The notes: generated by a model not told the origin, from the sequence alone. Positions 4,618-38,531 are shown, numbered from the stretch's first letter. The stretch: DNA of 64,000 bases from Marinicella meishanensis (GCF_019931145.1 NZ_JAIOUV010000001.1:434001-498000); one strand, 5' to 3'. Numbers and translations are program-made.

Positions 4618-6272
4618 CACAATTGATTGTGTGATCTGTCATCCACGCGGTACAAATCAAGGTCATAGGTATCGGTGCTGGTTACGATGTTGGCCGACAG
4701 CCGGTCACAAGCCGTCATGGTAAGCTCCAAGTTGGCAAAAGGGGTCTGGTTGGGGGTGGCATCGGCGGCGAATAAACCAATCCCATCGTATTGAAAGACA
4801 TCAACGGATAAAGTGCTGATGGGCCTGTTCAATTCGGCATTGCCAGCAAACCAAAATGGCTGGCCATCCAAAAACGTGTACCCCGTTACAAAGACATATT
4901 CAGAGCCGTTGTTGCGTTGAGCCACTTGAATCACCAAGCCTTGGTTTTCTAAGGTGGGGTCAATCCATGCACCCTTGGTGATGGTGCCAATATCGGGCGT
5001 GTCTTCGATCTCATAAATCATGTTGTTGGTGGCGACCACAATTCGATCGGATTGGCCGTCAGCCAGAACCCGTGCATCAGGTCCCAATGGCAGTGACAAA
5101 AACAGGGTGTCCGCTGCAAAGGGGTTCAGCAAAACGTTGGTTGTGATCAGACCGTTGGCTTGGGCATAGGTGTTGGTCAGCAGTGACGCAGAATTGGTTG
5201 ATCGTGCAGTGAGTGGCTTGGTGCGTGAATGATATAGAGCCAAAGGTAAATCTGGCAGCTGGCGGGCCAGTAAGCGCGTGGTGACCAAGGCATCTGAGTC
5301 ATCTGGACGGGTGGTGTCAATGGCAATATAAGGCCCCACAGAATACCAGTCTGTGATGACCAAGGATGGGTCATCAAAATCAACAAATGTGGCATCCACA
5401 GCATCACCAGCTTGGTTGAGGCGTTTGATTTCATACCCGGCTGCTTGGCCACCGGATTGCCTGACATACAAACGCCCTTCGTGCATCAATAAATCGTGGG
5501 TAAAATTGGCTCCCAACAGGTCATTCAGTGAAGTGATTTCACCGGATGCAGCAATCCGCCACAAGTCAGTCCCATCATCGAAATTGGGCACCATGGCATA
5601 ACAGGCCGTTTCGTCACCCACCAAACGGATGGTGGCGTCATCGGCGTCATCAGGAATAACGAGATCAATGGTGGAAGTGCCCCCTTGATCGGAACGAACC
5701 AACACCAAAACGTCATTGACCAGACTCACGCCAATGATGTGGTTTGTGGTGTAGGCACAAAGGTCATTGATTGAGTTTCCGACCAGAGCCACTTCGTGAA
5801 CCACGGCCTGTTGTCCATCGGTGACCACATACCGGTTGTTGATGGCTTCCACCATGTAAAGCAAATCATTGCTGGTATTGAATTCGGGATAAACTACTTC
5901 CGGGTAAACCAAGGCTGATCCAGCGGGGGTGCCGTCGGTCTGCCACAGTTTGGTTTCTCCGGCCTCTTTGTGCAGAAAAAACAAGGTGTTGTCTTGTTTG
6001 AAGTAAGTGGGGCTGTCATTTGACTGCACCAGCTCACCGGCCACCAATTTTTCTATTTCTTGGCTGTCAAGGTCCCAAGCGTATAGTCCGGGTTCCGCCT
6101 GATTGATCAGAAAGAAAGTGTGCGAGTAAATCAGCCGGTCTCCCAACAACTCAGTCGAATTGGGTACCAAGTAGATTTGAGATTGGCTGGGGTCGAGTTT
6201 TTGATTCAAGGTGAACGCGCTGGGTGTTGCCACCCACAGCATTGCCAGGATCAAAGTCAGGTGTTTGTACAT
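4590..6272 (-). CDS. Exported repeat protein, probable beta-propeller
   Basis: A 560-residue exported protein. The ATG at 6272 starts a signal peptide (MYKHLTLILAMLWVATPSAFT) and has AAGGAG 7 nt upstream, so it is preferred to the longer frame. Internal segments such as TKLWQTDGTPAGS match the ELWxTDGTxxGT repeats of bacterial exported proteins, and alternating beta-strand-like stretches suggest a propeller. Near residues 430-500 is a segment beginning GAWIDPTLENQGLVIQV and containing GQPFWFAGNAEL, which resembles the WYNPxxxGQGF...GxPxW domain often seen at the end of secreted proteins in this type of bacterium. No catalytic motif seen. Function unknown. Its 3' end overlaps the amidohydrolase gene by 28 bases. 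Confidence 0.7.
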   Translation of the reverse strand: MYKHLTLILAMLWVATPSAFTLNQKLDPSQSQIYLVPNSTELLGDRLIYSHTFFLINQAEPGLYAWDLDSQEIEKLVAGELVQSNDSPTYFKQDNTLFFLHKEAGETKLWQTDGTPAGSALVYPEVVYPEFNTSNDLLYMVEAINNRYVVTDGQQAVVHEVALVGNSINDLCAYTTNHIIGVSLVNDVLVLVRSDQGGTSTIDLVIPDDADDATIRLVGDETACYAMVPNFDDGTDLWRIAASGEITSLNDLLGANFTHDLLMHEGRLYVRQSGGQAAGYEIKRLNQAGDAVDATFVDFDDPSLVITDWYSVGPYIAIDTTRPDDSDALVTTRLLARQLPDLPLALYHSRTKPLTARSTNSASLLTNTYAQANGLITTNVLLNPFAADTLFLSLPLGPDARVLADGQSDRIVVATNNMIYEIEDTPDIGTITKGAWIDPTLENQGLVIQVAQRNNGSEYVFVTGYTFLDGQPFWFAGNAELNRPISTLSVDVFQYDGIGLFAADATPNQTPFANLELTMTACDRLSANIVTSTDTYDLDLYRVDDRSHNQLCQNPRGLTK

Positions 6273-23709: not shown

Positions 23710-25791
23710 ATGAAGATTGCCCCTTTCAGGATCTGCTGGCTGCTGTTGATGATGGGTCTGGCGTTGGAAGCATCCAGCCAGGGCTTGGTGTCCGGGTGGC
23801 AGGAGGATCCCATCCATGGTCCATCACAGTCGGGCATTGCCGACGGCTTGGCCCTGGACTTCAACAATGATGGTCGGGTCGATGTGGTGTCGGTTTCTCT
23901 GGATGATGGTCATTTGCGGGCATACATCAACCAAGGCGAATACCGGTTCGAACAACAGATCATTGCCACCAATGTGCCCGGGGCTTTCCGTTTGGTGGCC
24001 ACCGATTTGAATGATGACGGGGGCATTGATTTTGTCATTCCGTCCATTTTCACCCAACAAATCATCGCTTTGATGCACCACCCCGATGGCCATCAAAAGC
24101 AAATCATCGCCGAAGGGGTGTTGTTACCCACCGACGTCAGCCCCATTGACTTCAACAACGACGGCTTGATGGATTTGGTGAGTCTGTCGTTTGAAGAAAA
24201 CTTGGTACTCAGGCACCGACAGCTGCCTGCAGGCGGGTTTGTCACCACAGTCTTGGCTGATGGCATCAGCGACCCCAGAAAACTGAGTGTGGCTGACTTC
24301 AATGGCGATGGTCTGGATGACATTCTGGTGATTTCTTCGGGTGACAATGCGGTGCGAATTTTAGAAAATTTGGGCAACACCAAATTCAGAGCCCGGTTGA
24401 TCAGTGATCGCATGGAGTCGGGTCGATTTGTCGCCACCTGTGACATCAATGGCGATGCGATGGTTGATTTTGTTGCGTCAGCCAATGCCGCCAATAAAGT
24501 GGCGTTGTTCACCAATCAAGGCAATTGGTCATTTGCCGAACGGTTTTTGTTTGCCACGGTGGTCGGGCCCAATGACCTGAAGTGCCATGACTTGGATGAC
24601 GATGGCGATCAGGAGCTGATCACCCTGGCCGGCCCCACCGGCTTGGTGGAAACCCATGAGCTGAATGGGTCGCCCAATTCCCATTTGGTGGCCAATCAGC
24701 GGGACGGATATGTGGCCATTGATGTGGGGCGCTTTGACGGCGTCAATCCGTACATTTTATCGCCGGCCTATTTCGAGGACAGAAACCTGCTGTACGCACC
24801 GGGTTCAACCAACAAAGAGATTGTGGTTTGGCAGGACTTTCCCGACGGCCCAAATGACGTGGTGGAAGCCGACCTCAATGGTGATGGTGTGAAGGACTGG
24901 GTGGTGGCCAGTTTTCGCGACGACCGGGTGCAATGGTACGATGGGCTGACCCGTGCGCACCACATCATTGCCGAGGACATTGATGGGGCCGCCAAAGTGG
25001 TGGCGGTTGACCTGGACCAAGATGGCTTTGTTGATGTGTTGTCAGCGGCTTCTTTTGCCAACCGTTTTTATTGGCACCGGCAAATAAGTGCCGGACAATT
25101 CAACACCCTGGTGATATATGACAATGCGCGCTTTGCCAACGGCCTGGCGGTGGGTGACATCAATTTGGATGGTCAATTGGACGTCATTGGCACTTCGGGC
25201 AGTGATGATTCGGTGCGCTGGTTTGATCGCAATGGCATGAATTTCACGGCCCATTTGATCGATAACCAAGGCGATGCGCCCAATGAAGTCAAAGCGCTCG
25301 ACATCGACCAGGATGGCGGGCTGGATTTGGTGGTTCCTTACACTTTTTCCAATGAACTGTATGTGTATTACAACCTGGGCGGTGGTCTGTTTGCTGCCGA
25401 ACCAGTGGCGGTTGGCTTGAATCGGGTTGATTCGACCACCCCGGTGGATTTGAATGAGGACGGCTTGATGGATTTGTTGGTGGCCGTGACTGGTGGCAAC
25501 ACCGTGATCCAATTACTGCAGCGATTGCACGGCGGATTTGATCAAGCCCCATTCATCACATCCATCATCACACCCAAAAAACTCAACACCAATGGTGCCG
25601 TGGCCAACCAGTTTTTGTTTGCCAAGAGTTTTCCTGAAAGCATCGAAACCAACATGGTTTATCGCATCAGGCCGGTGGTGGATAATGGCGGACCCTTGTT
25701 CGAACAAAGCAACATCACAGCGGCTGAAAATGTGGTGTTTCGCATGACCTTGGTCGACTTGATTTATCAGGACGGCTTTGAAATCCCATGA
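23710..25791 (+). CDS. Exported FG-GAP/VCBS repeat protein with DGFE-type tail
   Basis: A 693-residue exported protein with signal peptide MKIAPFRICWLLLMMGLALEAS. Nearly the whole mature chain is made of ~45-residue repeats carrying calcium-loop cores such as DFNNDGRVDVV, DLNDDGGIDFV, DFNGDGLDDIL and DLNEDGLMDLL, the hallmark of FG-GAP/VCBS beta-propellers. Roughly a dozen repeats would form one or two seven-bladed propellers. It ends LIYQDGFEIP, a tail also seen in modified form on two other secreted proteins in this window. No catalytic domain recognised; adhesion or polysaccharide binding is plausible. It starts 40 bases after the helicase gene. Confidence 0.85.
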   Translation: MKIAPFRICWLLLMMGLALEASSQGLVSGWQEDPIHGPSQSGIADGLALDFNNDGRVDVVSVSLDDGHLRAYINQGEYRFEQQIIATNVPGAFRLVATDLNDDGGIDFVIPSIFTQQIIALMHHPDGHQKQIIAEGVLLPTDVSPIDFNNDGLMDLVSLSFEENLVLRHRQLPAGGFVTTVLADGISDPRKLSVADFNGDGLDDILVISSGDNAVRILENLGNTKFRARLISDRMESGRFVATCDINGDAMVDFVASANAANKVALFTNQGNWSFAERFLFATVVGPNDLKCHDLDDDGDQELITLAGPTGLVETHELNGSPNSHLVANQRDGYVAIDVGRFDGVNPYILSPAYFEDRNLLYAPGSTNKEIVVWQDFPDGPNDVVEADLNGDGVKDWVVASFRDDRVQWYDGLTRAHHIIAEDIDGAAKVVAVDLDQDGFVDVLSAASFANRFYWHRQISAGQFNTLVIYDNARFANGLAVGDINLDGQLDVIGTSGSDDSVRWFDRNGMNFTAHLIDNQGDAPNEVKALDIDQDGGLDLVVPYTFSNELYVYYNLGGGLFAAEPVAVGLNRVDSTTPVDLNEDGLMDLLVAVTGGNTVIQLLQRLHGGFDQAPFITSIITPKKLNTNGAVANQFLFAKSFPESIETNMVYRIRPVVDNGGPLFEQSNITAAENVVFRMTLVDLIYQDGFEIP

Positions 25792-25931: not shown

Positions 25932-26990
25932 ATGCACAACACCCCAGCACAAGAATTGAATCAGGCACTGAAGTCATGCGAGTCGATGACTGAAGTGAGC
26001 ACAGAGCAACGGACCTCGCTGTGCCAAATCATTGAGCAAGACCCATTTCTTTATGCCTATTTGCGGGATTTGGTGCGGGTGTTGGGGGCTGATCAAACCA
26101 GTCACCAACAAGCCACAGCGGCTTTGCAAACCATGGGGCAAAGGATGGCTTACTTCCATCACTGGGATGACGCTGCCAACCAAACCATTGGCCTGATTCA
26201 AGACCACATCTTGCCGGCATCAACGATCAAGCCCCACATCCGCCACAGTGATGCAGATTACCAGCGGTTTTATGAAACACAAAATGCCAAAGTGGGCCAA
26301 AGGGTGGGTAAAAATCGCCGTCCACTGAATCGCCTGAAACCCTATCAACCCTTGGTTTTGAATCGACATTTCGATCATTGCATCCGCAAATCTCATGCGG
26401 TCAATGTGATCGAAACCATGATGGCGGTGCTGGAGTCCAGTGACCTCGAAATCAACCGCAAGTGGTTGGACATTGGCTGTGGCAACGGCCTGATCGCCAA
26501 CGCCGTACATGCCAAAAAACACGGGGCCAAAGAATGGCAGATTTATGGTTGTGATTTGCAATCAAATAAAATCAAAATCGCGCAAAACCGGGCTTGTAAG
26601 AACCGGCACTTTTATCAGCAAAATGTGCTGGACACCTTGCAAGCCAACCAGACCAAAGAGGACGCTTATGATGTGGTGAGCATGTTCGAGTTTTGCGAAC
26701 ATTTTGCCGACCCATTTGCGCTGTTGAAACAAATTGCTGAGCAAGCGTTCAAAGTCATGGTCATCGCCACACCCTTGTGTCAGAAAACCGATCTGATTGA
26801 AGACAACCAACCAGATCCGGTGCATTTGTGGTCGTTTTCGGTGGAGGCCATCAAGCGCATGCTGGCGCAGTTGAATTTGACTGTGATCATGGATGTTGAG
26901 ACCCGGGTGGGTGAATACAACAAAGGCATGAACTGGTTAACCGTGGTTGCTTGCAAGCCAGAATATCATGCCGTTTTCAAATCCATGTGA
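25932..26990 (+). CDS. Class I SAM-dependent methyltransferase
   Basis: A cytoplasmic methyltransferase of 352 residues from the ATG at 25932; ATG 25854 in the same frame is an alternative that would add 26 residues of poor quality. The SAM-binding motif I is KWLDIGCGNGLIAN near residue 177, followed by YGCDLQ (motif II acidic end) and DVVSMFEFCEHF (motif IV). The N-terminal 130 residues are helical and not recognised. Its TGA is directly followed by the ATG of the LTA-synthase-like gene, implying one transcript and a shared role in surface-glycan or lipid modification. The acceptor is unknown. Confidence 0.85.
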   Translation: MHNTPAQELNQALKSCESMTEVSTEQRTSLCQIIEQDPFLYAYLRDLVRVLGADQTSHQQATAALQTMGQRMAYFHHWDDAANQTIGLIQDHILPASTIKPHIRHSDADYQRFYETQNAKVGQRVGKNRRPLNRLKPYQPLVLNRHFDHCIRKSHAVNVIETMMAVLESSDLEINRKWLDIGCGNGLIANAVHAKKHGAKEWQIYGCDLQSNKIKIAQNRACKNRHFYQQNVLDTLQANQTKEDAYDVVSMFEFCEHFADPFALLKQIAEQAFKVMVIATPLCQKTDLIEDNQPDPVHLWSFSVEAIKRMLAQLNLTVIMDVETRVGEYNKGMNWLTVVACKPEYHAVFKSM

Positions 26991-28856
26991 ATGATGCCAT
27001 CAGCCACCTTTGAGTTCCGTTCATGGCCCAGGTCTGCGCAAGTGATCGGCTCAGTGCTGCTGGCCGTTTTGGCTGTGACCGCCTTGTTCTTGGTGGTCAA
27101 TGGTTTGGTTGAAAAGTTCGGGTCTATCAGCCCACTGAGCTCTGCAATCAATGCCTTTTGGTTTGAGCCCTTGGCGCTGCTGTTGTCTTGGGCGTTGCTG
27201 GTTGTGCTGTGTGCCAGGATCTTCCACGGATTTTTGTTGTTGGTGTTTTTGTATGTCTCGTTCATGCTGATCAACATCCAGATGACCCAAATTTTTGGCA
27301 CGGTGTTGTCGCCTTATGACCTCAAATATGCGTTCCAATTGTTGCTGGCAAAAGAGGTCTTATACAGCTTTTGGCACCTGCTTTTGTTGACCTTGGTGGT
27401 GGCTGGTTGGTTGCTGTATCGCATCTCAAAAGCACCGGCCAATCAATGGATCAAACGGCACCGGTTGAAATTGATCGCCATCTTTGTGGTGACCCTGGTT
27501 TCGGTGCATGCTTTGCGTGACGAAGTGACGGGGCTGTTTCGCCAGCAGTTCAACATGAAGGGTCAGTCGGTGCCATTGATTTTTTCAGAATACCAAGGCT
27601 TTTTATTCAGCTTTTACTACCAGTTGTTGAAGCAGCAGCCCATCAAGCTGCCGCCCGGTTATGGTGACCAAGCCATTCGTGACATCATCAACCAACACCC
27701 CAGTGATGCCGTTGACGACAGTGCGGTCAAACCCCACGTCATCATTTTTTTCATCGAAGGTTTTGCCGACCCATGGGCCATGGACATCAAGACCACACGT
27801 GATCCGATCCCTAATTTCAGGTCCATGCAGGCTGAATCAATTCACGGTGATGTGTTGTCACCTGAGCTGGGAGGTAAATCAGCCAATCCTGAGTTTGAGC
27901 TGCTGACCGGAATGAGCATGCGCTTTGTTCCAGATGGATCCATTCCCTACATTGACCACCTCCACCAACCGGTGCCCAGCGTGGTGCGGGTGTTGCAACA
28001 GCACGGCTACCATGCAACAGCCATGCATGTGGCAAGTTTGGCCTTTTTCAATTACCGCAAGGCCTATGCGCTCTTGGGTTTTGATGAGGTCATGACTTTG
28101 TATGGGCAAGCCGGGGTGGCCATGGACCCCATCAATCGGTTTCCGTCGGAAAGTGCTTTGGTGGCGGCCATCATTGATAAAACCACCCAGGCTGATTCGC
28201 CTCAATTCATCTTTTCATTTCCCAATTCCACCCATGGTTTGTGGGATTATGACCATTACTTGGATTCGTCACTGGATGTGGTTGATGTGGCGCTGGAAGG
28301 CGGTCAGAATCATTTGAAAACGTACATCAACGCCATTCATGCGGCGGATCAGGCCATCGGGGAACTGATTGATCATTATCGCCAAGCCGATCACCCCGCG
28401 GTCATTCTGGTGTTGGGAGACCACCAGCCCGGTCTGCCTGAATTCAGACAGGAAGCGGCGGTGAAATTGTTGCAGAAACTGGATCCCGGTTTCACTTTTG
28501 ACAACAGAAAGGCCCTGCGTCGGGCGATTCGCACCAAAGCGCTCAAAGCCGATAATGAATTCTATTTGTTGAACCACCAAGTGCCTTATTTCATCTGGAG
28601 CAACCAAGCAACAGCGCCCCAACGCATCAACACAAGCATGAATTTTTTACCGTCCCTGTTATTGGACACGGTGGCGGTGCCGAAGCCGCCCTTCTATGAA
28701 TTGTTGGATGCACTGCGTGACCGGTTCCCTGCGGTGGGTCGAACCCTTCCAGGGGCTGAGGAACGGGATGCCTTGTTAATGGACTACGAAATGATCCAAT
28801 ACGATGTGTTGCATGGCAACAACCACTACATGGACCTCACCGACCCCGACCGTTAA
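26991..28856 (+). CDS. LTA-synthase/OpgB-like sulfatase-fold phosphotransferase
   Basis: A 621-residue inner-membrane enzyme of the alkaline phosphatase/sulfatase superfamily. Five hydrophobic segments occupy about residues 15-180, then a periplasmic catalytic domain begins at HVIIFFIEGFADPW (metal-binding Glu). The nucleophile region reads GGKSANPEFELLTG, with Ser where LTA synthases and most homologues have Thr. FPNSTHGLWDYDHY and VILVLGDHQP supply the remaining metal ligands. Known relatives move phosphoglycerol or phosphoethanolamine from phospholipids onto lipoteichoic acid, periplasmic glucans or lipid A. In this Gram-negative context a phosphoglycerol or similar decoration of a surface glycan is likely. 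Starts immediately after the methyltransferase stop; ends with a 4-base convergent overlap with the next gene. Confidence 0.85.
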   Translation: MMPSATFEFRSWPRSAQVIGSVLLAVLAVTALFLVVNGLVEKFGSISPLSSAINAFWFEPLALLLSWALLVVLCARIFHGFLLLVFLYVSFMLINIQMTQIFGTVLSPYDLKYAFQLLLAKEVLYSFWHLLLLTLVVAGWLLYRISKAPANQWIKRHRLKLIAIFVVTLVSVHALRDEVTGLFRQQFNMKGQSVPLIFSEYQGFLFSFYYQLLKQQPIKLPPGYGDQAIRDIINQHPSDAVDDSAVKPHVIIFFIEGFADPWAMDIKTTRDPIPNFRSMQAESIHGDVLSPELGGKSANPEFELLTGMSMRFVPDGSIPYIDHLHQPVPSVVRVLQQHGYHATAMHVASLAFFNYRKAYALLGFDEVMTLYGQAGVAMDPINRFPSESALVAAIIDKTTQADSPQFIFSFPNSTHGLWDYDHYLDSSLDVVDVALEGGQNHLKTYINAIHAADQAIGELIDHYRQADHPAVILVLGDHQPGLPEFRQEAAVKLLQKLDPGFTFDNRKALRRAIRTKALKADNEFYLLNHQVPYFIWSNQATAPQRINTSMNFLPSLLLDTVAVPKPPFYELLDALRDRFPAVGRTLPGAEERDALLMDYEMIQYDVLHGNNHYMDLTDPDR

Positions 28857-29389
28857 AGGCTGGCGTTGTGTTTGATGTTGAATTCACCCAAGGCGGCCTG
28901 TAGGTTGACCTCGGCATCGATGGCGGCACAAAATTGGCTGAAATCCTGTGCCCAGTTTTCCAGGGAGAAGTCCATCTGCTTGGTTTTGTCTTTCAAAAAC
29001 ATGCGGATGTTCTCGTTGATGGTGTGACAGTAGTCGCGGGCGATCACCTGGGGATCGGTGGTTTTGTCCATCTTTAACAACACACCAGGGGTTTTGTAAG
29101 CACGCATGATGCCTTGGTTGATGCGTTTGACCAGGCTGTTGCAGGTGTCTTCTTCGTTGCGGGTCAAATGCACGTAAAACGCATCGTTGCCGTACTTTTT
29201 GTCCAATCGCCCCAGCAGCCATGCTAACCTATTGTCAACTTCGATGTGGTTGGGCGGGTAAGCAAAACGGTCGGCACCCAACAACCCAGTTCGTGACTCG
29301 TGCGCGGCGGTGAAATTGTGGATGTGTTGACACGCTTTTGCAAAGGTGGTTGATCCACACCGGCCGGTGCAGAGGACAAAAACATTCAT
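28853..29389 (-). CDS. Short P-loop sulfotransferase-like protein
   Basis: A 178-residue cytoplasmic protein starting at the ATG at 29389 (MNVFVLCTGRCGSTTFAKAC). CTGRCGSTT matches the 5'-phosphosulfate binding loop of PAPS-dependent sulfotransferases. HLTRNEEDTCNSLVKR fits the 3'-phosphate binding region (Arg/Ser). It is short for the family (usually 230-300 residues), with the C-terminal part compressed. The longer upstream frame of 68 codons is not protein-like and overlaps the divergent gene. Likely sulfates a glycan made by the neighbouring transferases; acceptor unknown. Confidence 0.75.
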   Translation of the reverse strand: MNVFVLCTGRCGSTTFAKACQHIHNFTAAHESRTGLLGADRFAYPPNHIEVDNRLAWLLGRLDKKYGNDAFYVHLTRNEEDTCNSLVKRINQGIMRAYKTPGVLLKMDKTTDPQVIARDYCHTINENIRMFLKDKTKQMDFSLENWAQDFSQFCAAIDAEVNLQAALGEFNIKHNASL

Positions 29390-29444
29390 AAAGACAATTG
29401 AATTCGCGGTTTCAGAAACGACAATATAACAAAAATCACCCAAG

Positions 29445-30371
29445 ATGAAAGACTTAAATATTCCGGAGTCAGAAAAAGCTCGGTTTGAACAAATGGTCAG
29501 GGCCCAGCCAGAGTTGCTGAGCTCGCGTGCATTGTTGGCGGCCTTAAAACCGCTGGCAAAACAGGTGATCAGTGACCCGCAATCACCGGACATTGGTCGG
29601 TTGATTCAAACCGCCCTGCGCCAGGAACAAGCCTACTCAGTGATTCGTCTGGGAGATGGTGAAATGAACCTGTTGGCCTATTCAAAGTATCCTGAGGTGC
29701 CTGAAGTCAGTTTCAAAACGGCGGTGGAGACCGTCAACAAACGGCAACACAGTTTCAAAACCAGCCGCACTTGGTTGTACCTGCTGGAAGAAATGATGCA
29801 TACCGCCATGTTGGAGTCTGATCTCATTGGCGTGTTGGGTTTGTGGCGGCCAGGTCCCTTGAGCATGGAACAATTCATCGACAGCATAGACATGAATTTT
29901 CGGGGCCGTTGGGGGCAGTGGATTGGCTTGGATTACATCAAGAAACTGGCTTTGAAAGGGGTGTTTCAGGAAAGGGTGTTGGCCCCCGCCCACCTGTATT
30001 TTGCGGTGATCGAACAATTGGACCAGTTGTTGGCATGTGCCGCCAAAACCTATTTGATCACCGATCAGTCTCCGGTGCATGATTTGTTGTCGAAACAACA
30101 TCCCGACGGCCACTTTGCATTGATCCAGACCCCCATTTCACCCCGTCCTTTGGTGAACACTGAGCCAGACTTCTTGTATAATGTGATGAGCCAACTGCCA
30201 CCTTGTATGAAAGGCACCTTGACTTTGGTGGGGGCGGGCCCGTGGTCCGAATTCTATTGTGGTTGGATCAAACGCAGAGGCGGCGTGGCTGTGGACATCG
30301 GCACCGGCTTTGATTTGTTGTTGGGCCATCAAGTGAGGCCCGTACATCGGAAAGTAAAACTGAACCTATAA
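29445..30371 (+). CDS. GT-D-type (DUF1792-like) glycosyltransferase
   Basis: A 308-residue cytoplasmic protein. The segment YSVIRLGDGEMNLLAYS near residues 64-80 matches the RxGDGE signature of the GT-D fold described for DUF1792 enzymes, where the acidic residues bind the metal and nucleotide sugar. The N-terminal 60 residues are helical. LTLVGAGPWSEFYCGWIKRRGGVAVDIGTGFD near the end resembles the SAF/GP-rich closing motif of the same family. In streptococci such enzymes extend glycans on serine-rich repeat proteins; here the cluster context suggests polysaccharide assembly. The gene begins 55 bases from the divergent sulfotransferase and is followed after 4 bases by a methyltransferase. Confidence 0.75.
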   Translation: MKDLNIPESEKARFEQMVRAQPELLSSRALLAALKPLAKQVISDPQSPDIGRLIQTALRQEQAYSVIRLGDGEMNLLAYSKYPEVPEVSFKTAVETVNKRQHSFKTSRTWLYLLEEMMHTAMLESDLIGVLGLWRPGPLSMEQFIDSIDMNFRGRWGQWIGLDYIKKLALKGVFQERVLAPAHLYFAVIEQLDQLLACAAKTYLITDQSPVHDLLSKQHPDGHFALIQTPISPRPLVNTEPDFLYNVMSQLPPCMKGTLTLVGAGPWSEFYCGWIKRRGGVAVDIGTGFDLLLGHQVRPVHRKVKLNL

Positions 30372-30375
30372 GCGC

Positions 30376-31071
30376 ATGAACAAACAAGACAAAAGCCCCA
30401 TCTCTCGGGTCAACAACTACATCGGCAACCTCACCAAGGAACAGATCGAAAACAAACACCACCGCGACAAGATTGGTGGCTTTTGGGAAGAATTGGGTCA
30501 ACTGCAAATGGATTTCATGAAAGCCAAGGGTTTGCGCGCTGAGCACCGCCTGTTGGACATCGGTTGTGGTTGTTTGCGCGGTGGACTCAAATTCATCGAT
30601 TACCTGCAAGCCGGGCATTACCATGGGTCGGACATCAATGAGTCACTGATCGAAGCCGGCAAAATTGAAGTGGCAGAGGCCAACTTACAAGACAAAATGC
30701 CGCAGTTGCAAGTCAGCAATTGTTTTGGCTTTGGTGAATTCAACACCACCTTTGACCGCATGATCGCTTTTTCACTGTTCACGCATTTGCACATGAACCT
30801 GATTCTGCAATGCTTGAAACATGCCCACCAATGTTTACATGATGATGGCCGCTTTTACGCCACATTTTTCATTGCCCAAGAAGATGTTCAAGAACGGCCG
30901 GTTGATGACACCCCTGGGAACATCATCACCCACTTTGAAATGGATCCGTTTCATTATTCGATGGCGGAAATTCAGATGATGGCCCAACACATTGGGTTTC
31001 AAGCGGCGCATGAACCGTCATTTGACCACCCCCGCGGACAATCCATGGTGTGTTTCACGAAGTCGGTCTAA
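30376..31071 (+). CDS. SAM-dependent methyltransferase with GCGCLRGG loop (paralogue 1)
   Basis: A 231-residue class I methyltransferase. The SAM loop is unusual: LLDIGCGCLRGGLKFIDYL at about residues 57-75, followed by YHGSDINESLIEAGK, where Asp would hold the ribose. FDRMIAFSLFTHL is motif IV, and DDGRFYATFF is motif V. The gene starts 4 bases after the GT-D gene, so both are cotranscribed. A second protein at 36.9-37.6 kb has the same GCGCLRGG loop and similar spacing, so the two are paralogues. Presumably methylates a sugar or a glycan end; no partner motif tells which. Overlaps the convergent acyltransferase gene by 17 bases. Confidence 0.85.
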   Translation: MNKQDKSPISRVNNYIGNLTKEQIENKHHRDKIGGFWEELGQLQMDFMKAKGLRAEHRLLDIGCGCLRGGLKFIDYLQAGHYHGSDINESLIEAGKIEVAEANLQDKMPQLQVSNCFGFGEFNTTFDRMIAFSLFTHLHMNLILQCLKHAHQCLHDDGRFYATFFIAQEDVQERPVDDTPGNIITHFEMDPFHYSMAEIQMMAQHIGFQAAHEPSFDHPRGQSMVCFTKSV

Positions 31072-32083
31072 AACGCCTCTTCAGCCAATCCTGAGCCGGC
31101 TTTTCGAAGCCATGAAAGACCAGCCAGGACAAACCAAGTACCACGGCCAAAAACACCGGAAACATCAGCAGCGGGGCCGCCACCAAGTGGGGTTTCATGA
31201 GCAGGATGATGGGGTAATGCAGCAAGTACATGGAGTATGAAATCTGTCCCAAAAAGTCCCCCACCTTGTTGTTGACCCAACGGTTACTGGCCGGCAATAA
31301 AAACACCCAAGAGACAAAGAACACCAACACCGCTGACCAGGTGGTGACCGAGTACCACAAGGTGTTTTGAGAGCCAGTGACTGCCGTGAAAATATTGGGA
31401 TACATCAACGGCAATAACAGCATACTCAGCAACCACCAATGGCTTTTGGGCCAATGGATCAAGCGGTGGTAATGGGCACCCAGCACCGCACCGGCCACAA
31501 AAAATGGCAAGGACTTGATGATGGCAAAGGTCAAATCATGTGGGCCCCAATTGACTGACAGGCTGGGCTGCCAGACAAAAACCACCAGGAGGACTGTCAC
31601 CACCAACAGCCAAAACAAGGTGGTGCGGTGTTGCATCAAATACCACAACAGCAAAGCCAACAGATAAAACTGAATTTCGACTGGGATGGTCCACAGCAGT
31701 GACTTACCGTGTAAAAAAAACAGGTGAATGGCCAGGTCACTGACGGAATCAACTTGGAATGTGAAACGGCTGTCAAAGCCGGTCACCGCGATGAACGAGG
31801 TGATGCTCACCAAGTAATACAAAGGCACCACCCTGGCGGCCCGGGCCAGCAAGTATTTTTTGCTTTCAAGCGAGTTGATTTCGCGGTGAAAGTAGATGTA
31901 TGCAATCAAAAAGCCGCTGAGCACAAAAAACACCATGACCCCCACTTGGCCACCACCCTGGCCCAACAAGCGATCAAAGATTTTAGAAGAGTTGCTGTAG
32001 TGGCTGACCAGCACCATCAAAGCCGCCAAGCCGCGAATGGTGTTCAGAACTTTCAACTCACTGACGGTGGCGTTGCTTTTCAT
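31055..32083 (-). CDS. Acyltransferase-3 family O-acyltransferase (OafA/NodX-like)
   Basis: A 342-residue multi-pass inner-membrane protein. It opens with LNTIRGLAALMVLVSHYS, where His is the conserved catalytic residue of the acyltransferase-3 family, followed by VFFVLSGFLIAYIY and the basic loop YLLARAARVVPLYYLV, both typical. About ten transmembrane helices follow. Family members move acetyl or other acyl groups onto sugars of O-antigen, capsule or peptidoglycan. No SGNH domain is fused, so another protein may complete transfer. It is the last gene of a minus-strand run that begins at 36327. Confidence 0.9.
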   Translation of the reverse strand: MKSNATVSELKVLNTIRGLAALMVLVSHYSNSSKIFDRLLGQGGGQVGVMVFFVLSGFLIAYIYFHREINSLESKKYLLARAARVVPLYYLVSITSFIAVTGFDSRFTFQVDSVSDLAIHLFFLHGKSLLWTIPVEIQFYLLALLLWYLMQHRTTLFWLLVVTVLLVVFVWQPSLSVNWGPHDLTFAIIKSLPFFVAGAVLGAHYHRLIHWPKSHWWLLSMLLLPLMYPNIFTAVTGSQNTLWYSVTTWSAVLVFFVSWVFLLPASNRWVNNKVGDFLGQISYSMYLLHYPIILLMKPHLVAAPLLMFPVFLAVVLGLSWLVFHGFEKPAQDWLKRRFRPTS

Positions 32084-32120
32084 GGCTGGGTGTTAAGCGG
32101 ATGAGGCGGGTTTGACATGA

Positions 32121-32939
32121 TCAAGCGGCGGCGGTGGGGTAAACCGCTTGGTGATGCTGTCCGATGGCCTGCAGGCGCTGCTGCAGCACAGCGAGTTCAC
32201 TTTGGTCATAGGCTTGGTTTTTATTTTTGGAGCGCAACGCAGGCAGTTGATGGCTGGATTGGCCCGTGATGCCCCGGAGCACGGCCTGTGGGTCGCTGAT
32301 CAAAGATTCATAGCGCACCAGAGTGATGCGGTCTTGGTGGCGGGCATATTGTTTGAAAAACCAATCCAAAATCAAAATTTGGCGGCCCAGCAAATCATCG
32401 GCCTGGGTGTCACTGGCGAATTCAGGGTGGTACTTTTCGGCCACCAGCATCTTGCCATGACTGACCGGAATGTCCAATGAGCGCCATGACATCAACACCG
32501 AAACCGGGTTGCGCACCACGGCGATGATTTGATTGTTTGGGTTGCGCAGCAAGGCAGCCAAACAAGCGGTGAATTGGGCGTTGGCTTTGATGATGAAAGT
32601 GGCATCGGCCAAATGCTTGGGCAAGTGCTCAAACACTTCCTGCTTGTCAACAATGATCTGGCCGTCTTGGCTGCGGTGGTAGTAATTGTCTGGCACCCCG
32701 GATTTGAATCGGCTTTGTTTGATGGGTACCGGCTGACCGGATTGGATGTCTCGGCGCAAGTCATCGATCTGCTGTTGCAGCTGTCGTTGGAAGGCATCGG
32801 CGTCCGGAGACTGGTCGCGGACTTGTTTCATCCACAGCGGTTCGCTGAAGGCCACGGCCGACAAATTGGTCGCCAGCAGTGAGGTGATCAAGCTGGTTCC
32901 AGATCTGGGAAGGCCGGTGATGAGGAGATTCTTTGACAT
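32121..32939 (-). CDS. PAPS-dependent sulfotransferase family protein
   Basis: A 272-residue cytoplasmic protein. LLITGLPRSGTSLITSLLA at residues 5-22 is the 5'-phosphosulfate loop, and IIAVVRNPVSVLMSWRSL near residue 140 is the 3'-phosphate motif (Arg and Ser). The ATG is preceded almost directly by the T-run of the terminator for the upstream gene, so its ribosome-binding region lies within that hairpin; see the terminator entry. Probably adds sulfate to a surface glycan. Lies 37 bases from the acyltransferase gene, consistent with one transcript. Confidence 0.85.
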   Translation of the reverse strand: MSKNLLITGLPRSGTSLITSLLATNLSAVAFSEPLWMKQVRDQSPDADAFQRQLQQQIDDLRRDIQSGQPVPIKQSRFKSGVPDNYYHRSQDGQIIVDKQEVFEHLPKHLADATFIIKANAQFTACLAALLRNPNNQIIAVVRNPVSVLMSWRSLDIPVSHGKMLVAEKYHPEFASDTQADDLLGRQILILDWFFKQYARHQDRITLVRYESLISDPQAVLRGITGQSSHQLPALRSKNKNQAYDQSELAVLQQRLQAIGQHHQAVYPTAAA

Positions 32940-32940
32940 G

Positions 32941-32970
32941 AAAAAAAGCCCCGATCGGAATCGAGGCTTT
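32941..32970 (-). terminator. Intrinsic terminator abutting the sulfotransferase start codon
   Basis: On the minus strand, arms AAAGCCTCGAT / ATCGGGGCTTT (one mismatch) surround a four-base loop and end in a run of seven T. The run ends one base before the ATG of the sulfotransferase at 32939. It closes the transcript of the exported protein gene 33001-33744, and readthrough would be required for that promoter to serve the sulfotransferase. Confidence 0.8.
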
Positions 32971-33000
32971 GTTTGATTTGATTCGAATTAAATCAATTCA

Positions 33001-33744
33001 TTATGGCGCTGGTGAACTACAAGGGCCACCGATGAAGGTCTGACGACGAGACTCATACTCATCCAAGAAGTAGGTGTCACCTTCGGTCACACGGGTACTG
33101 CGGTCCATGGAGCCCAAACGAGCACGGGTGATGACCGGCCAGTCAGCAATGTCCAAACCAGACAGGTCCACCACTGGGGTATCGGCTTCGCTGGTGGCGT
33201 TAACCCATACTTTCAAAGTCGCGGCAGTCAAGTCCAAGTCATACTCAACACGGGTAGGCTCGTCATTGATGGGGATGAAGTGACGGTTTCTCCAAGTGGA
33301 GATGTTTTTGTCACGAACCCACAGATCCAACTCATAACCGGTGTCGGTGTTTTGCAGTTTGAACTGCATCACGTCACCACTTTCACACAGGCCGCCAGCA
33401 CATTGGGCTTGGTGGAATTTCACTCGGCGGTTGGGGCCAGTGGTAGGCATGCCAACGGTGTTGGGATCAATACACATGGCTGCGCGGAAACGGGTTTCGT
33501 TGTTGGGCGAGCTGTCTTGTACGAAGTGACGGGTGTTTTGGCCACCGGTTTGTGGAACCACTTCCACTTCCAAACCACAAGCACCATCCATGGCAGCGCC
33601 AGTGGTCACGTTCAATTTGGTTAGGGGGTTGGTCACTGAAGTCCAAGCAGACAAGTTGCTGTTGTCACACGATGGTGCAGCTAAGGCGGCTGAACCGACA
33701 ACTGTCATGCCCAATCCCGCAATTAATTTAGTGAATTTATTCAT
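33001..33744 (-). CDS. Exported cysteine-containing protein, apparently strongly expressed
   Basis: A 247-residue protein with a clean signal peptide (MNKFTKLIAGLGMTVVGSAALA, then APSC). The mature part is beta-rich, has about six Cys placed for disulfides (SCDN, DGACGL, AAMCIDP, AQCAGGLCES, GGPCSS), and resembles a concanavalin-like sandwich (YELDLWVRDKNIS; TRVEYDLDLTAATLKVWVN). No catalytic residues recognised. It has its own strong-looking promoter with phased A-tracts, a GGAG ribosome site and an immediate terminator, unlike its neighbours. It sits in the middle of the glycan cluster and may be a secreted carbohydrate-binding or coat protein; that is inference. Confidence 0.7.
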   Translation of the reverse strand: MNKFTKLIAGLGMTVVGSAALAAPSCDNSNLSAWTSVTNPLTKLNVTTGAAMDGACGLEVEVVPQTGGQNTRHFVQDSSPNNETRFRAAMCIDPNTVGMPTTGPNRRVKFHQAQCAGGLCESGDVMQFKLQNTDTGYELDLWVRDKNISTWRNRHFIPINDEPTRVEYDLDLTAATLKVWVNATSEADTPVVDLSGLDIADWPVITRARLGSMDRSTRVTEGDTYFLDEYESRRQTFIGGPCSSPAP

Positions 33745-33775
33745 TGTTTCTCCGAATTATAGTTCAAGTTCATTG

Positions 33776-33836
33776 ATTATAACGCAAGGGGCTTTTGATG
33801 TCGGTCACTTTTTTTTTGCTTTTTTTCATTTTTTTT
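33776..33836 (-). promoter_or_regulatory. Strong promoter with phased A-tracts
   Basis: Minus strand: -10 TATAAT (33781-33776) and -35 CCGACA (33804-33799) with a 17-base spacer. Upstream lie three A-runs (33809-33817, 33820-33826, 33829-33836) whose centres are about 10 bases apart, which matches an UP element and an intrinsically bent segment. It drives the exported protein gene at 33744. A second TATAAT lies nearer the gene. Confidence 0.65.
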
Positions 33837-33846
33837 CAGGACCCGC

Positions 33847-34803
33847 TCAAAACGTGGTGCTGATCAGGTTGAACGCATTCATCAAAGCCACCCGTTCGGC
33901 CTCTATGGCATACACCGCAGTGGAGGACTTGGCGGCTTGGATCACCGCCTCGAATTCGGCAGGCGGCAGTGCCAACACCGACTTCAGGGTTTGGACCAAG
34001 GCGTCGTTGTCATAGGTCGTGACCCGACAACAGGCCGGATCCAATGAGTAAGACCGGTTGCCTATGCAGTCAGGGATGATCAAAAAAGATTCCAACATCA
34101 TCGCTTCGATGCCAGGGATGTAGTGTTCCTCAACCTGTTTGGGCAAGTGCAACGAGACCTTGCTGCGGGCCAGCAGGCGTTGGAACTCGGTTTTTTCAAT
34201 CCAGCCATCAATCACCTGTACCCGTCCGGCGAATGATTTGATTTGTTCATGGATGGCCCGGGCGGCGCATGGGTTTTTGTTGCCCACCACCAACACATCG
34301 ATGGTTTTTTGTTGAGCGGCTTGTGCCGCGGTGGGACAAATGCCCACCCCATTGGGCATGTATATGGTCACCCCGTCGGTGTTGGGGTGGTTGCGCACGG
34401 CATGAAACAGTTCTGGGCTGGGGCACAGCCTGATGGCATTGCGCGGCAAAAAATCAAATGACGGGTGGCCTGGGCGCGTGGCCCGGAAGTTGTTCACCGG
34501 TGAAATGATCGGTGTGGTGGCGGGAATGGTCCGGTTGGCAGCGTAACGGATCCAGTCTTTGCCTGAATTCAAAAACAACACATCCGGTTCAAAATCCAGG
34601 TCATCCAGGGTCGGCATCCGGTCAAATTCATGGAACCAGGGGATGTGTTCATCCCACAGGCTTTCGGCGTCAAAAAAGATGTGTGGTTGGTAGCCTGCAA
34701 TGGTCTGCACATGGCCGAAGAAGTCATGGGTTTTGTGGTGCGCGCCACGGACCACTCCGGGTCGGCCAAAATGCTGATAGAAGACGACGTTTTTCACTGG
34801 CAT
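33847..34803 (-). CDS. GT-B-like glycosyltransferase
   Basis: A 318-residue cytoplasmic protein. The ATG at 34803 is chosen because it lies 2 bases after the stop of the preceding sulfotransferase gene and begins a good N-terminus (MPVKNVVFYQHFGRPGVVRG). TIDVLVVGNKNPCAARAIHEQ near residue 170 is the start of the second Rossmann half. EEHYIPGIEAMMLESFLIIPD near residue 225 resembles the ExxGxPxxE-like donor-binding region of GT4/GT1 enzymes in degenerate form. Probably adds one sugar to the cluster's glycan. The longer upstream frame would overlap the neighbour and is rejected. Confidence 0.65.
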   Translation of the reverse strand: MPVKNVVFYQHFGRPGVVRGAHHKTHDFFGHVQTIAGYQPHIFFDAESLWDEHIPWFHEFDRMPTLDDLDFEPDVLFLNSGKDWIRYAANRTIPATTPIISPVNNFRATRPGHPSFDFLPRNAIRLCPSPELFHAVRNHPNTDGVTIYMPNGVGICPTAAQAAQQKTIDVLVVGNKNPCAARAIHEQIKSFAGRVQVIDGWIEKTEFQRLLARSKVSLHLPKQVEEHYIPGIEAMMLESFLIIPDCIGNRSYSLDPACCRVTTYDNDALVQTLKSVLALPPAEFEAVIQAAKSSTAVYAIEAERVALMNAFNLISTTF

Positions 34804-34805
34804 CG

Positions 34806-35501
34806 TCAAATCGCCTGGTCCAGCAGTTGCCGGTAAAGGGGTTTCAAAGCATCGGGACATTCGGCCCATCCGTATTGGCTTTGGTTGCGCAAAGCGGCTT
34901 CGAAGAAGGGTGCCGATTCATTCAACGCAAGACCAAACTGTTCAGCCATGCTGGCGATCTTTTGGTTGTAAGCGGTTTCATCTTCATCAAAGTTGATGAT
35001 GGGAAAGGCTTGCTTGGCATGGGTCTCCAACAAGCGCTGATTGTAAATCGACCACAAGGCCAGCCCTTGTTCCAATGGCACCGGAAAAGCGTCTCGTGAC
35101 AACAACGATTCAGCCACTGCCAAGGGGTGACGGAACGTGCCCATCAGTTGGTGGGCGGGTAAATGCGGTTGCCACAAGGGGTAAGTCAGCACCATGCGGG
35201 GGTCTTTGATGCCCCAAGGTTTGGGTAACTGGTCATATTTGGCCAGCACCTCCAACAAGCGGTTCTGATGTTCAGCAGACAGCGCCAGGGGGCTGCTGGG
35301 TGGCTGGTTCCAACTGCCGCCATGGGCTTTCAGAATGGCCTCATTGAGGCGGAACACCCAATGGTTTTCCTGGTTGCCTTTCTGGTTGTATTGGTTGAAG
35401 GTCGACACATTGCCCAAGTTCAGGCCGTAGGCAGCCAGACAACCGGTCAAACAACTGGTGCCGCTGCGGTGCATGCCAAGGATGATGAAAGCGTCAGTCA
35501 T
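34806..35501 (-). CDS. Sulfotransferase family protein
   Basis: A 231-residue cytoplasmic protein with the P-loop FIILGMHRSGTSCLTGCLAA at residues 5-24, diagnostic of the PAPS-binding sulfotransferase family, and LMGTFRHPLAVAESLLSRD near residue 115 as the 3'-phosphate site. Overlaps the upstream glycosyltransferase by 8 bases and is 2 bases from the downstream one, so the three genes are translated as an operon. It is the third such enzyme in 7 kb. Acceptor unknown. Confidence 0.88.
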   Translation of the reverse strand: MTDAFIILGMHRSGTSCLTGCLAAYGLNLGNVSTFNQYNQKGNQENHWVFRLNEAILKAHGGSWNQPPSSPLALSAEHQNRLLEVLAKYDQLPKPWGIKDPRMVLTYPLWQPHLPAHQLMGTFRHPLAVAESLLSRDAFPVPLEQGLALWSIYNQRLLETHAKQAFPIINFDEDETAYNQKIASMAEQFGLALNESAPFFEAALRNQSQYGWAECPDALKPLYRQLLDQAI

Positions 35502-36327
35502 GCTGGTTCAACTTTTGATGGAAATTGGGGTCTTGTTTGAGCATCTCAAACACCTTTTTGCTGTTTTCCCGATTCACCGCCACTTCATACTTCAATGGGT
35601 TGAATAGCCAGCGTGCCAACCACAAGGGTAAGTACTTCTTGGCTTTTCTGAAGCGGGCCAATTTTTCTTCAAAATGGGCCACTTGGTTGCGGTCAATGCG
35701 GGTCCCGGGGTTGCGAAACGCAGCACCGTGGTGGTAAACCAACTGATCATACACGCCAAACAACAAGGGGTGCATGTCGTGGTGGTTGGATCGGTGCATT
35801 TTGTACCAATCCATGTTCCGTTCATTGAGAATTTTCAGCATCTTGCCCCCCACATCCCACACGTCTTTACCAAACACATCCTTCCACAACACTTGACCGT
35901 GCTTCCAGTCACCTTCGATTTCTTTCCAGGTTTTGATTTTCATCACACAGAAACAGGGGTGTGGTTGTATGTCGCCATTGTTCTCGGTGCGTTGGACTGC
36001 GGCAATCGGATATTGTTCGAGGGTCTGATCGATGAATTCATCCACCGACGCAATGGGAAAGGCATCACCATCGATGAACAACAAATAGTCCTCTTCACTG
36101 TCTGCGGCAAAGCCGGCGATGTCAGCCAACAAATTCAATTTCACCGGATGCAAGCGGATGTCTTCGGTGCTGCTGTAAAAAAATTTGTGGCGGTGCTGGT
36201 TCACTTCCGGGATGTGGTTTAAAAAGGTGTAAATGCGGAAGGGTTGTTTGATGTGTTTTTTCAGGTACTCAATCTGAATATCAATCCAGTCTGCAGATTT
36301 CCAGTGGATGGTGAGGACATGTATCAT
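35494..36327 (-). CDS. GT-A-like glycosyltransferase
   Basis: A 277-residue cytoplasmic protein. MIHVLTIHWKSADWIDIQIEYLKKHI is a typical GT-A opening beta-alpha unit, and LLFIDGDAFPIAS near residue 85 supplies the DxD-type metal/nucleotide-sugar site. PHPCFCVMKIKTW and HHGAAFRNP suggest an acceptor-binding face like that of capsule transferases. First gene of the minus-strand run 36327-31055. The region upstream is the inverted-repeat element. Not assigned to a CAZy family. Confidence 0.7.
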   Translation of the reverse strand: MIHVLTIHWKSADWIDIQIEYLKKHIKQPFRIYTFLNHIPEVNQHRHKFFYSSTEDIRLHPVKLNLLADIAGFAADSEEDYLLFIDGDAFPIASVDEFIDQTLEQYPIAAVQRTENNGDIQPHPCFCVMKIKTWKEIEGDWKHGQVLWKDVFGKDVWDVGGKMLKILNERNMDWYKMHRSNHHDMHPLLFGVYDQLVYHHGAAFRNPGTRIDRNQVAHFEEKLARFRKAKKYLPLWLARWLFNPLKYEVAVNRENSKKVFEMLKQDPNFHQKLNQHD

Positions 36328-36927
36328 GGTGTTCAGCTTGAAAAGGTCGGGATAGTATACAAGTTGTCCATTTCAAATAAAATGCCTGGCCACCAATTAG
36401 GGCCTGTTAACACCAACTGAAAGACCACTGTTCAGGCTGCAAAGGTCACAATCAAGGCGCGAATCGCGTGGTTTGGTCATTCCAATCGAACGATGAGCAA
36501 CGCCGGGTGTGGCCTTTGCAGTTTGAACCCATGGGGCTGGGTCGTGTTTTCCATCCCTCAGCGTTATTCATTCGTTCATGTGGAGTGACCACACCTCACG
36601 ACTGATGCCTTGATGGCTTAAAAATACGATCTACCAGTTGCCTTGCAGTTGGTGTTAACAGACCCTGGTGCTTTGTTTGATTGACTCCTCCTGTCCATGG
36701 CCGCGAGGCCACCAGCTCCGGCAGCCTTGCAGACCGCTTGGTTGGCGACCAGCCACCCACATGCGTGGTGGTTCTCATGCGGTGATCGATCCCGCAACAC
36801 CCCAGGTTTAGGGTTTGTGCTGTTCGGTCGGCGGAGGCCACCCGATCCGGCGTGCACCGTTTCACTGCTTGAATCACCGCACAAAGGTTTTAAAAGGCCC
36901 ATGGTGCAGGTAAAATGGCCGGTTTTA
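36328..36927. other. Gene-free region holding the inverted-repeat element
   Basis: A 600-base gap between divergent glycan genes. It contains the 266-bp element at 36400-36665 and its flanks; short frames in it have no coding character. No RNA gene recognised. The promoters of both flanking genes should lie here. Confidence 0.6.
36399..36666. mobile_element. MITE-like element with 21-bp terminal inverted repeats
   Basis: The left end (36399-36419) and the right end (36646-36666) are inverted copies of a 21-base sequence that differ at one position. The shared core is CTGTTAACACCAACTG. The interior of about 226 bases has no coding frame. No clear target-site duplication is visible. Size, terminal repeats and lack of a gene fit a non-autonomous transposable element or an insertion-sequence remnant. 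Confidence 0.6.
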
Positions 36928-37611
36928 ATGGATCAGTTCATCATGTCATCATTGAGCCAAAAAATAAAATTGATTGAAGACCGGGGGGTCTTTTTGGGTG
37001 GGCCCAAAGATTTGTTTGAGCTGGCGGGCAGGAAAATGCTGATGCTGTTGTTGTCCGAAGGGTTGGAACCTGAGTCCAAAGTGCTGGATTTGGGTTGTGG
37101 TTGTTTGCGTGGTGGTTATTGGTTCATTCACTTTTTGCAAAGCGGTGGTTACCATGGGATTGAGCCCAACCGGGCCATGTTGCAGGCCGGTTTGGAGGCT
37201 TTGTTCAGTGCCGACATGTTGGCCCAAAAACAACCGCGTTTTGTCCACAACACGGCATTCGACCCCAGTGAGTTTGAACAACAATTCGATTACTTTTTGG
37301 CCCGCTCCATTTGGACCCATGCCGCCAAAAAACAAATCACCATGATGTTGGATGCCTTTGCCAAATGGACCCATGACGATGCGGCCTTTTTCACCTCTTA
37401 CCTTGAGGCGACCAATGAGTCAGAAGAGTATTGGGGTAATGACTGGGTTGGCAAGAGTCACGAGTCGGACACCGCTGGCGTGGTCAAACACAGCATGCAC
37501 TGGATTGAAGCGGCCTGTCAAGACCGCGGTCTTAAGGTGACCAGCATGGACCAAGCACTGTTTGATTTGGACAACGCCCAACGTTGGTTGAAAATCACCC
37601 ATCAAGCATGA
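36928..37611 (+). CDS. SAM-dependent methyltransferase with GCGCLRGG loop (paralogue 2)
   Basis: About 227 residues from the ATG at 36928; ATGs at 36901 and 36943 are alternatives and no ribosome site settles the choice. The frame running upstream into the inverted-repeat flank is not protein-like. The SAM loop VLDLGCGCLRGGYWFIHFL is followed by YHGIEPNRAMLQAG, closely matching the protein at 30376-31071. FDYFLARSIWTHAAKKQI is motif IV and HDDAAFFTSYLEA motif V. Its stop overlaps the next start (ATGA), so it is cotranscribed with the glycosyltransferase-like gene. Likely methylates a glycan component. Confidence 0.82.
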   Translation: MDQFIMSSLSQKIKLIEDRGVFLGGPKDLFELAGRKMLMLLLSEGLEPESKVLDLGCGCLRGGYWFIHFLQSGGYHGIEPNRAMLQAGLEALFSADMLAQKQPRFVHNTAFDPSEFEQQFDYFLARSIWTHAAKKQITMMLDAFAKWTHDDAAFFTSYLEATNESEEYWGNDWVGKSHESDTAGVVKHSMHWIEAACQDRGLKVTSMDQALFDLDNAQRWLKITHQA

Positions 37612-38531
37612 AGCATGCCATCATATTTTGTGTGGAAAAAGGCTTTTTGGAAGACCAATGCCGTTTGTTGCTGCAGTCTTATCAACAGTTTGCCCAAGAT
37701 CCCAACATTGACTTGATCGCCTGTTCGCCGCGACCTGACAATCGGCCAACCCCAGAGATGGCGGCCGAATTACAAGCCGCTGGGGTCATTCACATGACCC
37801 AAGCTTTGAATCAGGATTTCCTGGACTATCCCATCGCCAACAAACTCTTGTGTTGTGCCCATGTGGAAAAGCATCACCCAGAGTATGCGTCCTATTTGTT
37901 CACCGATACCGACACCGTGTGGCTGAACCCCATCGGCCATCTGCATGCTGAGCCAGGGCTGTATTTGAAACCGGTCGGGCACAAGGGCCCCGGCACCTCC
38001 GGTGCACAGGATCCCATGGACACGTACTGGCAACAGGTCTTTGCCTTGTTTGATTTGCCCATGCCCGCGGTTGATGTGCAGACCACCATCGAGTTGATTC
38101 CCATCAGGGGGTATTACAATGCGGGGTACATTTGGGCCAACCAGCTCGATGGTTTTTTTCAACAATGGCTGGCAGACTTCAAGCGATTGCACCAAGCCGG
38201 TTTGGTGCCACCTGGTTTCGTTTCAAAAGATGGCAACAATTTCCGTTGCCTGGATCAAGTGGCCTTGGCGGTCACCGTGGCCCGCCATGATCAGCACCGC
38301 AAAGAGCTGCCCGTGCCCTATAACTATCATTTGCCATTTCGCCCCATGATGCCAGCCCAGCGGCGTTGTGCGCTGTCTGAATTGGTGCATGTTCACTACC
38401 ATAAGTGGTTTCAACACCCCGATTTTTTGGATCACGTGACGGTCGATGAAGAAAAAGCCAGCGCCCAATACCAGTGGCTGAAACAACGGCTGCCGCTGCA
38501 ACCAATTACTGGCGGCCCTTTCAAGTGCTGA
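37608..38531 (+). CDS. GT-A-like glycosyltransferase with DTD motif
   Basis: A 307-residue cytoplasmic protein starting at the ATG at 37608, which overlaps the methyltransferase stop (ATGA). MKHAIIFCVEKGFLEDQCRLLLQSY forms the first beta-alpha unit. YLFTDTDTVWLNPIGHL near residue 97 carries a DxD motif for metal and nucleotide sugar. RGYYNAGYIWANQLDGFFQQW near residue 165 resembles the FNSGVM-like acceptor loop of GT8-related transferases. Ends about 130 bases before polA. Closest role is transfer of a hexose in the surface-glycan pathway; donor and linkage unknown. Confidence 0.68.
   Translation: MKHAIIFCVEKGFLEDQCRLLLQSYQQFAQDPNIDLIACSPRPDNRPTPEMAAELQAAGVIHMTQALNQDFLDYPIANKLLCCAHVEKHHPEYASYLFTDTDTVWLNPIGHLHAEPGLYLKPVGHKGPGTSGAQDPMDTYWQQVFALFDLPMPAVDVQTTIELIPIRGYYNAGYIWANQLDGFFQQWLADFKRLHQAGLVPPGFVSKDGNNFRCLDQVALAVTVARHDQHRKELPVPYNYHLPFRPMMPAQRRCALSELVHVHYHKWFQHPDFLDHVTVDEEKASAQYQWLKQRLPLQPITGGPFKC

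Follow-up and report, generated by a model that had tools for sequence, protein, structure and literature searches.

A species-variable, sulfotransferase-rich island upstream of polA in Marinicella probably encodes a surface glycotype and a co-varying secreted protein

A variable island between a helicase gene and polA

We analysed a window of 64,000 nucleotides from Marinicella meishanensis (GCF_019931145.1, NZ_JAIOUV010000001.1:434001-498000), in which positions are counted from the first letter, and followed up a group of glycan-related genes at 25932-38531 that a first-pass annotation had described. Judged from the genes alone, this island is probably a species-variable surface glycotype locus, exchanged as cassettes between a helicase gene and polA, which specifies a short decorated oligosaccharide and a matched secreted protein, here called SEC. 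The island spans 12.6 kb of a 3.99 Mb genome and lies just upstream of polA, with the helicase gene on the opposite flank. Its 13 genes fill 11.8 kb; besides SEC, they encode three P-loop sulfotransferases, four glycosyltransferases (GT-D, GT-B and two GT-A), three methyltransferases, the acyltransferase AT3 and a GacH-like transferase. No description of this locus and no relevant work on sulfotransferases or glycan loci of Marinicella was found in the literature searched.

The interval upstream of polA was extracted from the congeners and its content was compared between the helicase/FG-GAP genes and polA. The congeners carried different mixtures of the same kinds of enzymes, with a mean Jaccard content similarity of 0.17, whereas the mean polA identity among them was 0.87. 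An identical gene set was observed in one pair only (G012 and G017). The islands contained many sulfotransferase subfamilies, glycosyltransferases, FkbM and other methyltransferases, AT3 and LtaS-like proteins, and also MBOAT with DltD-like partners, an epimerase, a DegT aminotransferase, DUF4915 and a metallophosphatase. The only near-constant members were SEC and the glycosyltransferase GTA2, found in 16 loci each. A search of 61 genomes found GTA2 in 18, which all belong to Marinicellaceae and are largely those carrying SEC. Both genes were missing in G005, G010 and G015, but there the interval is incompletely assembled. In a sister genus (L056) the island was found at a different chromosomal site, near yebC-ruvC according to gene names read from the sequence, and retained SEC, GTA2, LtaS, sulfotransferases and glycosyltransferases. 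In another family (L063) SEC adjoins ST3, further sulfotransferases and a glycosyltransferase.

The site therefore shows what defines a variable surface-glycan locus: conserved flanks, variable content, and glycosyltransferases together with glycan-modifying genes. The first-pass annotation had asked for the gene content of relatives and had held that scattering of the genes there would speak against a common module. Instead, the same kinds of genes occupied the same interval across the genus, and the comparison went beyond the annotation in revealing a cassette-exchanged site with a near-constant, co-varying SEC. That the enzymes act on small molecules or natural products is very improbable. 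Natural-product clusters also combine glycosyltransferases, methyltransferases and sulfotransferases, but no scaffold synthase was found among the island genes, the GacH-like and AT3 enzymes indicate membrane glycans, and the turnover at one site resembles that of serotypes.

SEC co-varies with the gene content of the island

SEC (33001-33744, minus strand) had been overlooked in the first-pass annotation. Across 11 loci, the distance between SEC proteins correlated with the distance in gene content (Mantel r = 0.82, p = 0.0002), and r was 0.75 and 0.70 when near-duplicate loci were dropped. Corresponding values were -0.17 for polA and gene content, -0.18 for SEC and polA, and 0.0 for the left-flank helicase and gene content (7 loci). 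Since SEC tracks the content while polA and the helicase do not, the cassettes have been exchanged between the flanks. A sulfotransferase adjoined SEC in 13 of the 17 loci, compared with a shuffled mean of 7.3; sulfotransferases make up 48 of the 191 other island genes. In the same shuffles, glycosyltransferases were next to SEC less often than expected.

The SEC protein has a signal peptide, recognised by eye, a divergent body and a near-invariant C-terminal tail, DE[FY]ESRRQTFIG. Its AlphaFold2 (AF2) model is a beta jelly roll of the concanavalin type (pLDDT 76, pTM 0.77), and Foldseek matched it to PL7 alginate lyases, CBM40 and glucanases at a TM score of about 0.45. An active PL7 lyase was rejected as a candidate, the QIH-type motif not being seen by eye. 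Marinicella genomes have one strong copy each, which ruled out an ordinary abundant paralogue; G007 has an additional weak partial match. In all congeners with SEC, the gene lies within the island. Named relatives of SEC come from Marinicella species and from metagenome-assembled genomes of Lysobacterales. In the model the tail follows the last strand, and it may act as a signal for assembly or sorting.

These data are compatible with a narrower proposal, which is plausible but which we put forward tentatively: each species would own a short, heavily sulfated surface glycan and a SEC adapted to that glycan, either to read it or to accept it, and the two would be swapped as a unit that has no polymerase or flippase in the locus. 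If so, lineage-specific surface identity would arise from the swapped pair, and the genus would offer a natural series of more than 12 glycan gene sets with their partner proteins. Sulfotransferases of bacterial glycans are poorly characterised, and such a series would allow us to ask which enzyme gives which sulfation pattern and whether the co-inherited protein recognises it.

The role of SEC was considered against two alternatives. In the first, a serious but unlikely one, the region is a protein-glycosylation island and SEC is the acceptor, which is glycosylated, sulfated and methylated in the cytosol before Sec export and finished in the periplasm, so that no flippase is needed. SEC is the sole non-enzyme that is almost always present, it co-varies with the enzymes, and no flippase was found in the island or in the genome searches. 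The island also encodes a GT-D enzyme, and the GT-D (DUF1792) enzyme was described from Fap1 glycoprotein biosynthesis (PMC5063993). Like the islands of Fap1 and other serine-rich repeat adhesins, the Marinicella island has soluble glycosyltransferases, including GT-D, adjoining a secreted protein. Unlike these adhesins, SEC is compact and has no Ser/Thr-rich repeats, and no accessory Sec genes were seen in the island. The conserved tail is retained in relatives without an island, and a compact domain that already carries glycans would be an unusual substrate for Sec export, which further counts against an acceptor. The idea of an obligatory acceptor across the order was also weakened by 20-odd homologues from other families that lack island genes nearby. 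We tentatively favour SEC as a glycan-binding surface protein over an acceptor.

In the second alternative, SEC is a hitch-hiker linked by position to a locus for a lipooligosaccharide (LOS) outer core or a single-unit O-antigen. We consider this unlikely as well. In its favour, one Wzy_C protein, a WaaL-like ligase, lies in a neighbourhood that reads as a group of lipopolysaccharide (LPS) core genes, and a second PF00953 (WecA-like) gene is present elsewhere, followed by a large gene that we read as WbpM-like. Loci without Wzy are known, as in the O-antigen genes of Vibrio KMM 8419 (PMC11641403). A passenger, however, would be expected to be lost or to track the flanks. SEC is kept in nearly all islands despite wholesale turnover, and it accompanies such genes in two further contexts, the sister genus and the other family.

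Pathway context and comparison with known systems

The rest of the genome was searched by protein family. The first-pass annotation had stated that genes for the synthesis of 3'-phosphoadenosine 5'-phosphosulfate (PAPS) are missing. This holds for the window island, whose genes include none for PAPS synthesis, sugar nucleotides or ATP-binding cassette (ABC) export, but not for the genome: an adenosine 5'-phosphosulfate (APS) kinase domain is encoded elsewhere in a frame of 576 residues, of which another part reads as ATP sulfurylase. APS kinase was present in 31 of 31 genomes searched, hence the supply of PAPS is not island-specific. The two requirements for a sulfated glycan, PAPS-dependent sulfotransferases (by motifs and Pfam) and a source of PAPS, are both present.

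The annotation's view of a modification module that lacks polymerase and flippase was upheld. No recognised Wzx or Wzy was found in any island; the multi-spanning proteins were of the AT3, MBOAT and LtaS types, except two unassigned proteins, u38 and u40, in L017. In the genome, PF01943 was absent and PF13440 matched below the cut-off only, so that there is no significant Wzx; PF02397 (the WbaP/PglC-type initiator) and PF02563 (Wza) were also absent in this search, of which ABC exporters were not part. A capsule locus was rejected on these absences. It is likewise improbable that the island serves a conventional capsule or exopolysaccharide pathway with polymerase and exporter elsewhere. Marine examples of sulfated capsules with sulfotransferase genes are known from Vibrio and Cobetia (PMC11641403, PMC11766843), but the genome has no Wza/KpsD-type exporter, PF02397 or significant Wzx, ABC components being outside this comparison.

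The capsule clusters of Vibrio KMM 8419 and Cobetia marina KMM 1449 resemble the island in that sulfotransferases and glycosyltransferases occur together, with an acyltransferase in the Vibrio cluster. They comprise about 70-80 genes and include PAPS, sugar-nucleotide and ABC-export genes (PMC11641403, PMC11766843), all three of which are absent from the window island. Like O-antigen, capsule and LOS outer-core loci in general, the Marinicella islands have fixed flanks, near-complete turnover of glycosyltransferase and modification genes, and exchange by flank recombination. They differ in that Wzx, Wzy and Wza were not recognised and nucleotide-sugar genes are few. Sulfotransferases account for a quarter of their genes, and the secreted protein that is nearly constant among them varies together with the rest. 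The locus fits the general kind of a variable surface-glycan locus, from which its richness in sulfotransferases, the lack of recognised polymer machinery and the co-varying SEC set it apart.

For SEC, the architecture of RbmC and Bap1 is different, and no homology to them is shown, but they provide an analogy: these secreted matrix proteins of Vibrio cholerae work with the Vibrio polysaccharide, VPS (PMC10865864). VPS is polymeric. For the glycan, the relevant precedent is GacH, the enzyme by which a side-chain sugar of a streptococcal carbohydrate is decorated with glycerol phosphate (PMC12282279). Unlike the streptococcal GacH/LtaS systems, the island is in a Gram-negative host with another glycan, and the match covers the catalytic domain alone. 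The first-pass annotation had proposed a polysaccharide carrying sulfate, methyl, acyl and phospho-glycerol groups. The GacH match strengthens the phospho-glycerol part, whereas polysaccharide is probably too strong a term. Because no polymer machinery was recognised, ABC-type export being outside the search, and because of the GacH match, the product is likely a short oligosaccharide to which sulfate and methyl groups are added in the cytosol, and phosphoglycerol and acyl groups in the periplasm.

We propose the following pathway for a surface glycotype locus. Cytosolic glycosyltransferases would build a short hetero-oligosaccharide, which PAPS sulfotransferases, supplied by the APS kinase of the genome, and SAM (S-adenosylmethionine) methyltransferases would cap in the cytosol, as the chemistry of their families suggests. 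The product would cross the inner membrane linked to a lipid, which may be undecaprenyl or lipid A-core. On the periplasmic side, the GacH-like enzyme would add phosphoglycerol and AT3 acyl groups, again by family. SEC would be the matched partner, most likely a lectin-like binder of the decorated surface glycan and less likely a protein that carries it. Whole cassettes would swap between species by flank recombination, a step supported by the comparison of congeners.

Several points weigh against this reading. Linkage alone could yield the correlation of SEC with content, which therefore demonstrates joint inheritance and not function. The P of 0.0016 for the adjacency of sulfotransferases to SEC is only indicative, since this comparison was chosen after inspection of the loci, which are related to one another. 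The SEC model is moderately confident and its Foldseek matches reach only the TM score given above. The genome-wide searches for export genes covered the Wzx and Wza types, and the pathway allows two lipid carriers. Finally, two further families (f3 and f12) have full-length homologues of SEC that stand alone: no clear island-type gene was found around them within about 8 kb on each side where the contig allows, apart from a single weak DUF4915-like match. SEC can therefore work without an island; it is probably older than its association with glycan genes, and its tail is not an island-specific glycan site. Homologues of SEC in other Lysobacterales (L058-L062 and L092-L108) are stand-alone secreted proteins, and several share this type of C-terminal tail, F[DE]SRR[QS]TFIG.

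Gene-by-gene evidence

The listed enzyme genes are intact open reading frames. The first-pass annotation had described them as tightly overlapping runs; some pairs do overlap, but others do not, and the strand switches six times across the island, which is therefore not one operon. Its counts of enzymes were confirmed, with evidence that differs from gene to gene.

Among the sulfotransferases, ST2 (32121-32939, minus strand) is a PAPS-type enzyme, with a Pfam match to Sulfotransfer_3 (3.9e-14), the motifs GLPRSGTS and RNP....S, and a family present in 10 loci. ST3 (34806-35501, minus) matched Sulfotransfer_3 below the cut-off (1.4e-3) but has the PAPS motifs GMHRSGTS and RHP....S, and its family occurs in 7 loci. 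ST1 (28853-29389, minus) is a putative P-loop sulfotransferase, recognised by CTGRCGSTT and a TRN....S motif; it had no Pfam family and no credible PDB match to confirm it beyond these motifs, and was found in the window locus only.

The glycosyltransferases were assigned to different folds. GTD (29445-30371, plus) matched PF22882, GT-D-like (1.2e-7), and contains the motif RLGDGE, and for GTB (33847-34806, minus) profile A5 matched the GT-B enzyme GlgA (8e-8). GTA2 (37608-38531, plus), close to polA, was assigned by its AF2 model (pLDDT 91), which Foldseek placed with BoGT6a and glycogenin, as a GT6/GT8-like GT-A enzyme. GTA1 (35494-36327, minus) had no family match and no PDB sequence match and is called GT-A-like for the DxD motif FIDGD, invariant in profile A6.

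Of the SAM methyltransferases, MT1 (25932-26990, plus; Methyltransf_23, 6.5e-18; relatives in 5 loci) and MT2 (30376-31071, plus; Methyltransf_12, 1.4e-9) scored above the Pfam cut-off. MT3 (36901-37611, plus) remained below it (Methyltransf_23, 5e-5) but has the motif LDLGCGCLRG and clusters with MT2. AT3 (31055-32083, minus) is a membrane O-acyltransferase (Acyl_transf_3, 7.3e-37). LTAS (26991-28856, plus), which had been annotated as an LTA-synthase-like phosphotransferase, is a GacH-like membrane phosphoglycerol transferase of the LtaS superfamily. It combines a membrane N-terminus (5 transmembrane segments) with an LtaS/GacH catalytic domain (Sulfatase, 1.1e-32) that has the metal-site motif GDH, and its closest solved relative is GacH (1.3e-17, a PDB sequence match to the catalytic domain only). 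The serine of GGKSANPEF looks like the nucleophile.

Further genes of interest

The APS-kinase fusion gene is followed directly by a paralogue of the 5'-3' exonuclease N-terminus of PolA (L078, 8588-11203; C3). To judge by match coordinates, these two genes adjoin each other in many Marinicella genomes. The genome has another APS-kinase-like gene, a short one, next to genes whose sequences read as nucleotidyltransferase-like and methyltransferase-like (L079, 2894-5249; C11).

A protein of 510-540 residues, not in the window, is encoded between GTA2 and polA in L013, L014, L016, L017 and L022, and one member of this group has a Peptidase_S74 (endosialidase chaperone) domain. The island of L023 contains a transposase-like gene, recognised by eye, and an integrase-core gene, by Pfam, at 41-1048 and 4746-5714; these are possible agents of the turnover of that island. 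A secreted FG-GAP repeat protein is encoded at 23710-25791 (plus strand), and in several congeners it lies between the helicase and the island. Its C-terminus carries DGFE-type residues (IYQDGFEIP), perhaps a sorting tag.

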